This document shows positions 38,618-43,987 of a DNA stretch of 62,226 nt, piece by piece (positions within the stretch are counted from its first letter, which is position 1; the number at the start of each line of letters is the position of its first letter). Below the pieces are notes generated by a model, which had not been told where the DNA came from, searched no databases, and saw only the letters and a program-made list of their open reading frames with translations. The DNA comes from Candidatus Gemmiger stercoravium. Lineage in GTDB: Bacteria > Bacillota > Clostridia > Oscillospirales > Ruminococcaceae. The DNA lies in contig DWWE01000095.1 in the NCBI GenBank assembly GCA_019119835.1, positions 1 through 62,226 of the forward strand, read 5' to 3'. Made by a program: the position numbers and the translations under genes.

Positions 38618-40279
38618 ATGAAGCCGTCCATTGATTTTTGCCCCTATTGTCTGGAACCGCTGGAAGGCGGCTTTCAGCAGAACTGCCCCCACTGCGGCAA
38701 AAGCCTGGCCAACCGCAACCCCGAAGGCGCCCTGCCGCTGGGCACCCAGCTGGGCGGGCGCTACACGGTGGGGGACTACCTCAGTGCCGACGGCGACGGC
38801 CTGGCCTACCGCGGGGTGGAAAATGCAACCAAGCGGTTCGTGCTCATCAAGGAATACTTCCCGGTCACGCTGTGCAACGGCCGCAGCCCGGAAGGCGCCC
38901 TGATGCCCAAGGAGGGCAGGGAAGTGCTCTTCAAGACCAGCCGGATGGACTTCAAGGATCTGTACGATGATCTGTGCCGGCTGACCCCCGCCACCGGCCT
39001 GTCCCAGATCCTGGATGTGCTGGAGGAGAACAACACCGTCTACGCGGTGGAGGAAAGCGAAAAGGGGATGACCCTGACCCATTATCTCACGCTGCGCTCC
39101 CGCAACCTGACCCCCGCCGAGGCCCGCACCCTGCTGCAGCCGGTGATGGAAGGGGTCACGCTGCTGCACAAGGCGGGGCTGATCCACCGGGGCATCTGTC
39201 CGGACAACATCCTGCTGCCCATCGACGGCAGCGCCCGGCTGACCGGCTACGGCACGCTGGCGCTGCGCACCGGCGGCAGCGAGCTGAAAAGCCAGCTCTA
39301 CCCCGGCTATGCAGCGCCGGAGCAGTACTCGGCCTCGGAATTTTCCGGCCGGTACACCGATGTCTACGCCCTGGCCGCCGTGACCTACCGGCTGGTCACC
39401 GGCCAGGTGCCGGTGGCGGCGCCCCAGCGCAAGGTGCGGGACAGCCTGGAAAGCGCCCACAGCCTGGAAAACGGGGTGCCCACCTACTTCTCCCAGGTGC
39501 TGGCCTGCGCCATGCGGCTGGACCCGGCCAAGCGGATGCAGACGGTGCCGGAACTCATGAGCGCCCTCACCGACCCCAGCATCGCCAACGCGATGTTCGA
39601 GCGGGGGGACAACCAGATCTCCACCAAAAAGATCCTGGGCGCCTCGCTGGTGGTCATCTTCGTGCTGGTGGCGCTGCTGCTCTGGAGCCTGACCGGCCGT
39701 CTGTCCGGCGGGGACCGCCCCGGGGCGTCCTCCGCCTCCTCCGAGCCGGCTCCCTCGGCTTCGCCGGCCGCCACCCCGACCGATGAGAACATCTCGATCA
39801 TCCCCGATCTGGTGGGCCGGGACTACGAAACCGAGATCAAGGGCAGTACCCTGTACCAGAACTACCGCATCATGATGACCGAGACCCATTCCTCCACGGT
39901 GGAGGAGGGCAAGGTTATCAGCCAGGAACCCATGGCCGGCACCCTGCAGACCCAGCAGAGCCCCATCATCCAGATCGTCGTGAGCAGCGGCCCGATGCTG
40001 GTGGACATGCCGGACATCATCGGCTTTACCCAGGACAACGCCAGCAAACTGCTGGATGCCGAGGGGATCCAGTACCGCATGGAGATCATGGAAAACGACG
40101 GTTCCTACGCCGAAGGGTGCGTGGCCTACTGCGAACTGGACGGCGAGCCGCTGGCCGCCGGCACGGAGTTGGATGCCGGCACGGCCGTGGTGACCATCTA
40201 TATCGCCGGCGAACGGGACGACAGCCCCCAGGTGGACCCGTCCCTGCTGGCTTCCGGCAGCACCGACACCGGCGAATAA
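38618..40279 (+). CDS. Membrane pseudokinase with N-terminal zinc ribbon and extracellular PASTA domains
   Basis: A 553-residue protein built like a PknB-type receptor kinase but with a dead kinase domain. Residues 8-27 carry CPYC and CPHC, a likely zinc ribbon. The kinase-like domain spans about 45-305. The ATP-lysine is present (VLIKEYFP, K78), but the glycine loop is lost, the HRD catalytic Asp is Gly (HRGICPDN, 180-187), and the DFG position reads TGYG (209-212). YAAPEQY (221-227) keeps the substrate-lobe signature. A membrane helix lies at about 338-358, then a Ser/Pro/Ala linker and two PASTA-like repeats (about 393-535). PASTA domains sense muropeptides or lipid II in the PknB family. 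A signalling or scaffold role is inferred. Confidence 0.87.
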   Translation: MKPSIDFCPYCLEPLEGGFQQNCPHCGKSLANRNPEGALPLGTQLGGRYTVGDYLSADGDGLAYRGVENATKRFVLIKEYFPVTLCNGRSPEGALMPKEGREVLFKTSRMDFKDLYDDLCRLTPATGLSQILDVLEENNTVYAVEESEKGMTLTHYLTLRSRNLTPAEARTLLQPVMEGVTLLHKAGLIHRGICPDNILLPIDGSARLTGYGTLALRTGGSELKSQLYPGYAAPEQYSASEFSGRYTDVYALAAVTYRLVTGQVPVAAPQRKVRDSLESAHSLENGVPTYFSQVLACAMRLDPAKRMQTVPELMSALTDPSIANAMFERGDNQISTKKILGASLVVIFVLVALLLWSLTGRLSGGDRPGASSASSEPAPSASPAATPTDENISIIPDLVGRDYETEIKGSTLYQNYRIMMTETHSSTVEEGKVISQEPMAGTLQTQQSPIIQIVVSSGPMLVDMPDIIGFTQDNASKLLDAEGIQYRMEIMENDGSYAEGCVAYCELDGEPLAAGTELDAGTAVVTIYIAGERDDSPQVDPSLLASGSTDTGE

Positions 40280-41221: not shown

Positions 41222-41369
41222 CCGCCGGCCGCACCGGGCAAAATGCGGCGGGTCCTCTTCCCCCCGGCGGCAAAATATGTTATAATAAACTGGTATATGG
41301 CCTGGCGGCATGGCCCCGGGCTTTCGCAAGGCACAAACAGGATGGTACGACCAGCAGGGAGGTACCGCT

Positions 41370-43340
41370 ATGACTCGTACAGAAGCACTGGAAGAATACG
41401 TTCACGCGCAGCGGCGCGCACAGCGGGAGTATCGGGAAAAGATTGCCGCGGGGCAGTATCCCTACCTGCCGGTGCTGGACGATATTCTGGAAAAAGCCAA
41501 TGTGGAAAACCAGCTGCCGATCGGCCTGGTGGAAGTGCCGATGGAGCTGCTGGTGGGGACCAAAACGGCGGGGCGCACCGCGGCGTTTGCCGCCAACTTC
41601 ATGCCGCTGCTGGGGGCCAACACCGAGTTCGCCAGCAAGTGGGTCTCGCTCTGCCAGGCCCATGTGGAGGAAGGCATCCGCGACCCGATCCGCTGCTTTG
41701 AATATATGGGCCGCTTTTATGTCCAGGAGGGCAACAAGCGGGTCAGCGTGCTGAAATATTTCCAGGCCGACTCCATCACCGCCAACGTCACCCGGGTCAT
41801 GCCCAAGTACAGCGACAGCCCCGAAGTGCGCCTGTACTATGAATTTGTGGAGTATTACCCGCTGTGCGGCATGTATACCCTCACCTTCACCCAGGAGGGC
41901 AGCTTTGCCCGTCTGCAGAAAGCGCTCGGCAAGGCCCCCGGCGAAAAGTGGACCGAGGATGACCGGGCCGAGATCCTTTCCCTGTACAACTGGGTCAAAA
42001 AAGCCTATTTTGCCCGGGGCGGCGCTTCGATGCGCCCCACCCCCGGGGATGTGCTGCTGCTGCTCGTGCGGTTCTACACCCTGGCCGACCTGAAAAAGCG
42101 TTCCCCGGCCGAGCTGACCAAAGCCCTGGACGCCATCTGGGACGATGTGCTGGCCATCGAAAAGCCGGTCCCGGTCAAGCTCAGCACCAAGCCGGCCGAA
42201 CCGGGCCAGGCCAAGCTCATCGACCGGATCCTGCCGGCGGTCATCCGCCCCGGCGCGGCCCGCAAAAAGATCAAGGTGGCCTTTGTCAACGAGCGCACCC
42301 CCGAGACCAGCACCTGGACCAGCCAGCATGAATTCGGCCGCAGCCAGCTGGACGAGGTGTTCGCCGGCCAGGTGGAGACCAGGGCCTACTACAACGCCGT
42401 CGCCGGGGAAAACGCCGACGAACTGGTGGAGCAGGCCATTGCCGAAGGCGCCGACATCGTCTTCACCACCAGCCCCAAACTGGTGGGCGCCTCGCTGCGG
42501 GCGGCCCTCAAACATCCCGAGTCCCGTATCCTCAACTGCTCGGTGGATATGCCCTACACCAGCATCCGCACCTACTACACCCGCGTGTACGAGGCCAAGT
42601 TCATCAGCGGCGCCATCGCCGGCGCCATGAGCACCGGCAACCGCATCGGCTATGTGGCCGACTATCCCAACTTCGGCACCCCGGCCAACATCAACGCCTT
42701 TGCGCTGGGCGCCCGGATGGTCAACCCCCGGGTCCGGGTGGATCTGCAGTGGACCTGCCTGCCCGGCGAACCCATCAGGAACTTCACGGCCCAGGGCATC
42801 ACGGTGGTGTCCGGGCGGGACACCCCCACCCCCAACCGCCCCTCCCGGGAGTTCGGCATCTTCCAGATCCGCCCCGGCGGTATGCTGGAGGACCTGGCCT
42901 CTCCCTTCTGGCACTGGGGCCAGTTCTATGAAAACGTCGTGCGCAGCGTGCTCAACGGCGCCTGGAGCAAGGACCAGGAAGGCGACGAGCGCCGCGCCGT
43001 GAACTACTGGTGGGGGATGAACAGCGGCGTGATGGACGTGCTGTTCAGCCGGGAACTGCCCCACGATGTCCGCCATCTGGCCAACATTCTGCGCCAGGGC
43101 ATCATCTCCGGTTCCATCGACCCCTTCGCCTGCCACATCATCGCCCGGGACGGCACCCTCATGAACGAGGGGCACCAGGGCTTCACCCCCGAACAGATCC
43201 TGCACATGGACTGGCTGTGCGACGCGGTGGACGGCCACATCCCCGAATATGACGAACTCACCGAGATCGCCAAGCCGATGTACCGGATGCAGGGCATCCA
43301 CCGGGACCGTCTGCCGGTGGAGAAGGAGGCTGATCTATGA
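41370..43340 (+). CDS. Leaderless ParB-like/BMP (PnrA-type) fusion protein
   Basis: A 656-residue protein in two parts. Residues about 45-150 resemble a ParB/Srx-like fold: a strand [12 protein letters not shown], helices, and the GxxR-type box [17 protein letters not shown] followed by ITANVTRV. Residues about 300-640 are a basic membrane protein (BMP/PnrA-type nucleoside-binding) domain: [12 protein letters not shown], the [15 protein letters not shown] strand-helix, [40 protein letters not shown] and [15 protein letters not shown] proteins are normally exported lipoproteins, but this one has no signal peptide or lipobox, so it should be cytosolic. GGGAGG (41357-41362) fixes the start. A TATAAT at 41281-41286 is a likely -10. 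It overlaps the phosphoesterase gene by four bases. Function unknown. Confidence 0.82.
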
Positions 43341-43987
43341 AGATCCTGGCCGTTGCGGACGAGGAATCCAAGTACCTGTGGGATTTCTACGAACCGGAAA
43401 AGCTGCGCGGCTATGACCTGATCATCGGCTGCGGCGACCTGAATATCCACTACCTGACCTTTCTGGCCAGCGTGGCGCCGATCCCGGTGATCTATGTCCA
43501 TGGCAACCACGACGAGGTGTACGACCAGTGCCCGCCGTCCGGGGCCCTGTGCATCGACGACGATGTGTTCTGCTACAAAGGGTATCGCTTCCTGGGGCTG
43601 GGCGGCAGCTGCCGCTACCGCACCGGCGCCTGGCAGTTCACCGAAGCCGAGATGCGCCGGCGCATCCGCCGGGTGCGGGGCAAGGTCACCCACGCCGGCG
43701 GGGTGGATGTCCTGGTCACCCATGCGCCGCTGCACGGCTACGGCGACCTGAACGACCTGCCCCACCGGGGATTCACCGTCTTTCAGGAGGTGCTCAACGC
43801 CTACAAGCCGGCGGTGATGCTGCACGGGCATGTTCACCTGAACTACAATCCCAGCCTCCCGCGGGAACAGCAATATGGCCAGACCCGTATCATCAATGCG
43901 TTTGAACGCTATACCATCGAACTGCCGGAACGTCCGGAGCTGCCCGTGCGCCAGAGCCTGCTGGCCCGGTGGCGGGCCGGGCGCTGA
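43337..43987 (+). CDS. Calcineurin-like metallophosphoesterase coupled to the ParB/BMP fusion
   Basis: A 216-residue cytosolic phosphoesterase. Metal-site motifs run in order: DEES near the N-terminus (where DxH is usual; [16 protein letters not shown]), IIGCGDLNIHYL (residues about 29-40), VHGNHDEVYD (about 54-63), LVTHAPLHGYGD and MLHGHVHLNYN. The change of the first DxH to DEE weakens that metal ligand, so activity should not be assumed. Its start overlaps the stop of the fusion gene (ATGA), so the two are probably made in fixed ratio. Nucleotide or phosphoester substrates are possible, but none can be named. Confidence 0.87.
   Translation: MKILAVADEESKYLWDFYEPEKLRGYDLIIGCGDLNIHYLTFLASVAPIPVIYVHGNHDEVYDQCPPSGALCIDDDVFCYKGYRFLGLGGSCRYRTGAWQFTEAEMRRRIRRVRGKVTHAGGVDVLVTHAPLHGYGDLNDLPHRGFTVFQEVLNAYKPAVMLHGHVHLNYNPSLPREQQYGQTRIINAFERYTIELPERPELPVRQSLLARWRAGR

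Follow-up and report, generated by a model that had tools for sequence, protein, structure and literature searches.

The locus considered here raises the question of what a domain of the BMP (PnrA-like) family does inside the cell, next to a phosphoesterase. It lies in contig DWWE01000095.1 of Candidatus Gemmiger stercoravium, of which 62,226 nucleotides (nt) were analysed (the window). One gene on the + strand, to which all window coordinates below refer, encodes a fusion of 656 residues (41370..43340, stop included) in which open reading frame (ORF), profile and model evidence places a ParB/sulfiredoxin (Srx) fold, a helical domain and a BMP domain. It shares the letters ATGA, a 4-nt overlap, with the ORF of a metallophosphoesterase (MPE) of 216 residues (43337..43987), which matches PF12850 (expectation value E 2.5e-8) and PF00149 (E 2.5e-6), both above cut-off. 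Positions, lengths and overlap were computed as an earlier reading of this DNA (the original prediction) had given them. We hypothesize, with an even chance of being right, that the two products form a cytosolic module in which a protein built from a ParB/Srx domain, a helical domain and a C-terminal part that can be exchanged acts with a calcineurin-type MPE by a sensing or control mechanism.

The two genes are kept together. In the genome contigs searched, the MPE gene lies directly downstream in 35 of 37 relatives of the fusion, 33 of them with the 4-nt overlap. Among 391 genomes of the class (its own included), the fusion was found in 39, the MPE in 41 and both in 38 (Fisher p 4e-48, with genomes treated as independent and kinship uncorrected); a fusion was counted at E <1e-70, and weaker N-terminal matches in genomes G141 and G314 were dropped. 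The MPE lies within 467 nt of the fusion in 37 of the 38 two-gene genomes, the largest gap being 467 nt (G096), which bears out the conserved phosphoesterase neighbour that had been predicted. It is downstream on the same strand in 16, upstream on the same strand in one (G339), convergent in 20 and on another contig in one (G172), while in G101, the sole fusion genome lacking the MPE, the fusion stands at a contig end. The pair also occurs in Collinsella aerofaciens (Actinomycetota), again with a 4-nt overlap, in a record that names the fusion 'BMP family ABC transporter substrate-binding protein'. Because proximity persists through rearrangement, the comparison argues for a functional link between fusion and MPE. 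The single upstream case, locus L091 of G339, has the arrangement of the pairs with a cysteine cluster described next.

Pairs of this kind also exist without the BMP domain. Profiles of the N-terminal ParB/Srx-containing part (N-domain) and of the MPE were searched in 198 other genomes of the phylum, and 12 of them gave an N-domain match: 11 are ORFs of 308-361 residues without BMP and with the motif DGNHR or DGHHR, and the twelfth (G426) is a 125-residue ORF with DGHHR. The MPE profile matched in 13 genomes, among them all 12 with a ParB/Srx match (Fisher p 2e-18, genomes again treated as independent). In 11 of the 12 the MPE gene immediately precedes its partner on the same strand, with a spacing of -4 to 65 nt when the first start codon is used; in G426 it is on a different contig. 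Each of the 11 stand-alone ParB/Srx proteins has a cluster of 4 to 9 cysteines close to its C-terminus (L146 is partly masked); when six were scanned with Pfam, Fer4 was above cut-off in L142, L143, L144 and L145 and unlisted for L138 and L139. Further partners matched the N-domain profile in Tsukamurella tyrosinosolvens (3e-10), where the MPE and a 288-residue 'chromosome partitioning protein ParB' follow a sugar ABC operon and overlap by 11 nt, and in Cetobacterium somerae (5e-21), where the MPE accompanies a 562-residue protein with the same N-domain (L150:4106-5794; C-terminal half unmatched by Pfam) after a glycogen phosphorylase gene. A 160-residue ParB-like ORF of Rubrobacter has no adjacent MPE, and a different metallophosphoesterase follows 2.7 kb on. 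Among the cysteine-cluster pairs, five genomes of one family (L143, L145-L148) carry Sir2-like and endonuclease/exonuclease/phosphatase-like genes after the pair, and L139-L141 an endonuclease III-like gene, both judged by eye.

Since MPE and ParB/Srx pairs exist elsewhere without BMP, the core is something other than a BMP protein with acquired partners; to judge by the sequences, the MPE and the ParB/Srx protein appear to make up an ancient unit whose C-terminal domain can be exchanged. The original prediction of a cytosolic fusion coupled to a phosphoesterase stands, with this change as to the core. Quick trees of 45 pairs recovered the BMP clade from both the MPE (98) and the N-domain (100), and Collinsella groups with the Clostridia rows L051 and L054 in both (96 and 94, respectively), a matching placement that suggests joint transfer of the pair. 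The cysteine-cluster rows form one group in the N-domain tree and not in the MPE tree, and the tree tool warns of long branches for L150 and L151.

Residues 1-290 are predicted to consist of a ParB/sulfiredoxin fold and a helical domain. The AlphaFold2 model of the N-domain has a predicted local distance difference test (pLDDT) value of 88.5, and Foldseek returned 182 matches up to E 10, of which five fell below 0.001, all of them Noc or ParB; the best was Noc at E 4e-5, and sulfiredoxin came next (E 0.005, 88 columns, root-mean-square deviation (rmsd) 3.9, probability 1.00). Forty-five of the best 50 matches are ParB-like or sulfiredoxin-type (with 8qa9 taken as KorB and 1vk1 as SerK-like), and the remaining five are one uncharacterised protein, 2hwj. 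Some alignments to Noc and ParB extend past the N-domain over 216-241 columns at an rmsd of 14-20 A, and we therefore rely on the N-domain match only. Sequence profiles point the same way at lower strength. Pfam lists no family for window residues 1-290, and no N-domain among the 41 scanned reached the PF02195 cut-off; of the 19 families that appeared weakly, at E up to 1, ParB_N did so most often, in 4 of the 41 domains (best value 0.0079). The ParB/Srx profile comparison proposed in the original prediction gave, for 41 N-domains against the PDB up to E 5, two matches only: sulfiredoxin at E 0.059, in register and with its SGCHR opposite EGNKR, and a designed protein at 0.93. A profile-profile comparison with ParB (20 relatives) was in register over 96 columns and not significant (E 0.069, probability 0.8%), the control of MPE against ParB giving 0.18. 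For the stand-alone proteins, a profile of ten domains (nine from the phylum genomes and Tsukamurella) gave 22 PDB matches up to E 1, 18 of them ParB (0.002), SerK or 1vk1 (0.006-0.017), Noc (0.010 and 0.041), sulfiredoxin (0.12 up) or SbnI (0.43 up).

Within the N-domain, the ParB/Srx core covers residues about 45-145 (41502..41804), as given by the model, Foldseek and the weak sulfiredoxin profile match. It would include a C-motif-like helix and loop at residues 86-106 (EFASKW...GIRDP; 41625..41687), conserved in 67 rows and placed by the ParB alignment, which is not significant alone, and the description of the C-motif in PMC12704722. The box EGNKR (residues 120-124; 41727..41741), which aligns with DGNHR/DGHHR of the stand-alone relatives, fits the P motif GxxR: E120, G121, K123 and R124 occur in 67 of 67 sequences and N122 in 64. 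According to this survey of ParB-fold proteins, the P motif is defined as GxxR, replacing its R by A abolished nucleoside triphosphate (NTP) binding in other ParB-fold proteins, and NTP specificity is unreadable from sequence, so we make no claim on which NTP would bind. The predicted ParB/Srx-like N-terminal third with EGNKR is thus supported by Foldseek and by the motif. The helical domain (residues about 150-265; 41817..42164) is seen as helices in the model; all 10 of the stand-alone relatives match DUF4032 in the corresponding part at E of 1 or lower (best 1e-6), two of the six scanned with Pfam, L143 and L145, exceed its cut-off, and DUF4032 is not listed for the 41 N-domains of fusions. 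A flexible linker (residues 288-298; 42231..42263; pLDDT <50) follows.

The MPE meets the profile cut-offs and carries the metal motifs of calcineurin-like enzymes (PF00149/PF12850), with DxE in place of DxH in motif I (D8-E-E10; 43358..43366). The glutamate E10 is present in 62 of 64 BMP-linked MPEs and replaced by Pro in two, and D8, D34, N57, H58, H129, H165 and H167 are invariant in all 64. DxE is therefore the norm among these enzymes as read from their alignment, not decay; only the histidine of motif I is replaced, and by a residue able to bind metal. The phosphoesterase with a DEE motif had been predicted correctly, and its label 'degenerate' is only partly right, since the other metal ligands are all kept. 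RNA lariat debranching enzymes also depart from DxH. The 11 MPEs of the cysteine-cluster pairs have DxE in six, DxV in three, DxI in one and DxR in one. Motif I alone is no marker of the module, because two control MPEs (Rhodococcus and Paenibacillus, about 32% identical to a linked MPE, with no ParB/Srx match in the surrounding 5.5 kb) also lack the histidine there. Searched against PDB sequences, the MPE by itself found weak matches only; the best profile matches were MPPED2 (1.6e-4) and RNA lariat debranching enzymes (6e-4), at partial coverage. Among 27 MPEs, the commonest NCBIfam matches were yfcE (24) and acc_ester, TIGR03729 (16), and the window MPE is below the YfcE cut-off (17.9 vs 56.25 bits).

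The BMP domain (residues 299-640; 42264..43289) is recognised by PF02608 (E 9e-13, 48.3 bits vs a cut-off of 24.1), as had been predicted, and its closest solved relatives over residues 294-626 are 3s99 (E 7e-33; modelled ligand adenine) and AtzT (6pi5, E 4e-26; guanine), with Foldseek at 1e-22. The comK activator of Bacillus halodurans (2hqb) is a structural neighbour. Using the AtzT contacts given in PMC6834077, with numbering matched to the chain by position, the pocket residues Tyr45, Ser97, Glu165, Trp194, Asn218 and Asn220 correspond to W, S, G, P, G and D in the window fusion, which does not keep the purine-binding set. Position 45, the stacking aromatic, is Trp and position 137 Glu in 67 of 67 fusions; at position 165, 50 have Gly, 8 Asp, 7 Glu and 2 Ser, and at the Trp194 position 10 have Trp. 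Stand-alone BMPs keep both Glu165 and Trp194 in 11 of 11, a set from which L001 and L003 of the window's own genome are left out (they did not pass the 1e-5 filter). A purine ligand, as the original prediction had envisaged, is accordingly unsupported for the window's clade, the window protein having Gly, Pro and Gly where AtzT has Glu165, Trp194 and Asn218. Position 165 tracks gene arrangement, being Gly in 50 of 50 fusions with a same-strand MPE, Glu or Asp in 14 of 14 with a convergent MPE and in L067, whose contig ends there, and Ser in L037 and L040, which have no MPE. A quick tree built from 47 of the 67 fusions together with 13 others places the fusions in one clade (Shimodaira-Hasegawa-like approximate likelihood ratio test 100), inside which the same-strand type with L037 and L040 forms another (100). 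From this tree and the split in pocket residues, it looks like the BMP domain was recruited once from exported purine-type binders and its pocket rebuilt in the window's branch.

The fusion is cytosolic as judged from its sequence. Within its first 60 residues, hydropathy over 15 residues peaks at 0.51 (66 fusions, without the fragment L028: mean 0.84, maximum 1.64), vs 2.4-3.5 in all ten exported-type stand-alone BMPs. No lipobox was found within the first 40 residues of the fusions; 9 of the 10 stand-alone BMPs have a lipobox-like motif within the first 90. An in-frame ATG lies 20 codons upstream of the window start and the extension has no hydrophobic stretch, and in 17 of 37 rows (window included, L028 excluded) no in-frame start occurs upstream before a stop. 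A missed signal peptide is ruled out by the hydropathy, the lipobox scan and these upstream starts, in agreement with the predicted absence of one. The original prediction had named three findings that would overturn it, namely a missed signal sequence, the lack of a ParB-like fold and the lack of a conserved gene pair; we found no signal peptide, a ParB-like fold and a conserved pair.

Sequences and models show the folds, the pairing, the gene overlap and the change of C-terminal domain; the mechanism that we propose goes beyond them, and its simplest form would be a sensor-gated NTP-binding protein that acts with a phosphoesterase. The C-terminal part varies: here it is BMP, and other lineages have a cysteine/ferredoxin segment, a domain of unrecognised type or no such part. 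By binding in the BMP cleft, a small ligand would switch the nucleotide state of the ParB/Srx domain, and that state in turn would control, or be reset by, the MPE, whose putative substrate may be a phosphorylated small molecule, a nucleotide or a phosphoprotein. On this view the BMP domain would serve as a ligand gate that was taken over from exported binders of purine bases and adapted. A small intracellular sensing or turnover system, as originally proposed, remains a plausible reading. Somewhat more hesitantly, we suggest a widespread two-gene module for signalling or metabolite turnover with its sensor swapped by lineage, whose BMP version would be a cytosolic receptor derived from an importer's binding protein.

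Several observations weigh against this proposal. In the window's clade the BMP pocket no longer has the canonical contacts to purines, which makes a purine ligand doubtful. The branch leading to the BMP fusions is very long for the N-domain (3.77) and 0.39 for the MPE, which means that the MPE changed little and the ParB/Srx domain strongly; with the change from DGNHR to EGNKR, NTP binding could be altered or lost, and the PNAS survey reports no NTP binding for 17 of 28 purified ParB-fold proteins (PMC12704722). The partners also occur apart: the MPE has no detected partner in G214, G238 and G080 of the class and G411 of the phylum, the fusion has no MPE in L037 and L040, and G260 and G311 hold second fusion copies, with one MPE found per genome, beside the other copy.

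The main rival is a metabolite kinase/phosphatase pair, in which the ParB/Srx domain would be a SerK/SbnI-like kinase, the MPE would remove the phosphate and the C-terminal domain would deliver or sense the substrate. The better stand-alone profile matches (E 0.006-0.017) include chains of free serine kinase as well as 1vk1, DGNHR aligns on DGHHR of 1vk1, SbnI and 1vk1 are in the Foldseek list of the N-domain, and a phosphatase neighbour suits opposing activities. However, ParB and Noc score equally or better, and the fusions carry Lys in place of the His of DGNHR (kinase activity after PMC5120207); we regard this pair as unlikely, if a serious competitor. The alignments to Noc/ParB over 216-241 columns and the comK activator 2hqb as structural neighbour would suit a DNA-bound regulator, a ParB/Noc-like NTP clamp with BMP as effector domain as in Med and the MPE as target gene. 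We consider it improbable, because those alignments have an rmsd of 14-20 A, which leaves the N-domain as the sole secure match, the Pfam list for the 41 N-domains includes no helix-turn-helix family and no gene past the pair recurs widely nearby.

That the two genes are neighbours by habit of gene order only, with MPE and fusion in separate pathways, draws on the fact that each occurs alone (G214, G238, L037, L040). Yet proximity is kept in three arrangements, across the C-terminal domain change, in records of three phyla and in differing surroundings, which leaves this explanation slightly more improbable still. An ordinary importer substrate-binding protein with a missed signal peptide is hardly credible: the Collinsella record bears such a name and has ABC genes within about 2-4 kb, but the fusions have neither signal peptide nor lipobox, 290 conserved residues precede the BMP domain, and the nine neighbouring proteins of the window scanned with Pfam include no ABC permease or ATPase, as had been predicted. 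No ParA, as in a canonical ParABS system, was among these nine either.

The nine neighbours match RsmF, YebC, PASTA protein kinase, hexapeptide transferase (serine acetyltransferase-like by eye), glycerol-3-phosphate dehydrogenase, MatE, fucosidase, TetR and an MCRA-family protein. The Ser/Thr protein kinase gene is at 38618-40276, a few kb from the pair, and such a kinase also occurs by eye among the neighbours listed near the pair or the MPE in several distant loci, including L093, L099 and L101. Beyond the pair, no ORF cluster occurred in >5 of 31 wider distant loci and the window. Shine-Dalgarno-like sequences precede both genes, GGGAGG (41357..41362) for the fusion and AGGAGG (43324..43329), within the fusion gene, for the MPE, and purine-rich stretches precede most of 37 fusion starts by eye. 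The genome of 2.36 Mb has three BMP matches besides the fusion. As to outlying loci, the MPE-less fusion paralogues L037:8013-9929 and L040:719-2584 stand beside carbohydrate ABC transporter genes, with a YesL-like gene on the opposite strand (both by eye), and the second fusion copies L079 and L089 (G260 and G311) have no adjacent MPE. In L093 (G214), the MPE lies amid neighbours like those of related fusion loci, among those listed, and no fusion gene was found; in L155:6528-9046 (G411), it adjoins a gene resembling adenine deaminase (by eye), with no ParB/Srx partner detected. A mobile-element origin was rejected, as no systematic link appeared in the phage and plasmid collections (viral_contigs not searched). 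Six phage records had any match, and one, an unannotated 10-kb 'Bacteriophage sp.' from human faeces (MT836456.1:1633-3534), holds a full-length fusion of 38.5% identity and may be a bacterial DNA fragment. Of 256 records from the plasmid collection, two hold the fusion over 80% of its length (Subdoligranulum and Collinsella, both of strain set TSDC17.2); the one from Collinsella also has tuf and genes for ribosomal proteins.

Two proteins annotated under unrelated headings, importer binding protein and metallophosphoesterase, are thus joined as one conserved unit, and no description of pair or fusion was found in the literature searched (titles, abstract starts and open-licence text, supplements aside). 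The label 'BMP family ABC transporter substrate-binding protein' can, as a warning, hide a cytosolic fusion. The ParB fold was recently shown to bind CTP, ATP or GTP, and the C-terminal swap on a constant ParB/Srx and MPE core is a natural test of how this fold is wired to inputs. Among known systems, the ParB-CTPase-fold fusions (Noc, ParB, SerK, DndB and archaeal ParB-CBS, as described in PMC12704722) share the fold, the C-motif-like helix and loop, GxxR and an added domain, and archaeal ParB-CBS, with a ligand-sensing domain on an NTP module, is the closest idea. Unlike the fusions surveyed there, ours have BMP as the added domain, a tie to a phosphoesterase and N-domains below the PF02195 cut-off; as the survey used PF02195 as domain-search query, it would probably miss them, and its main text makes no mention of Bmp, PnrA or phosphoesterase. 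AtzT and 3s99, the closest solved relatives of the BMP domain, share the stacking aromatic at position 45, whereas our protein is cytosolic and fused and its clade has lost Glu165 and Trp194. YfcE, acc_ester (TIGR03729), MPPED2 and the RNA lariat debranching enzyme share the metal motifs GD, GNHD, H and GHxH with the fusion-linked MPE, which differs by DxE in motif I. Med, a BMP-fold protein acting inside the cell, and the ComK activator (2hqb) resemble the fusion in using the BMP fold there, and we know of no ParB/Srx domain or phosphoesterase partner for Med.

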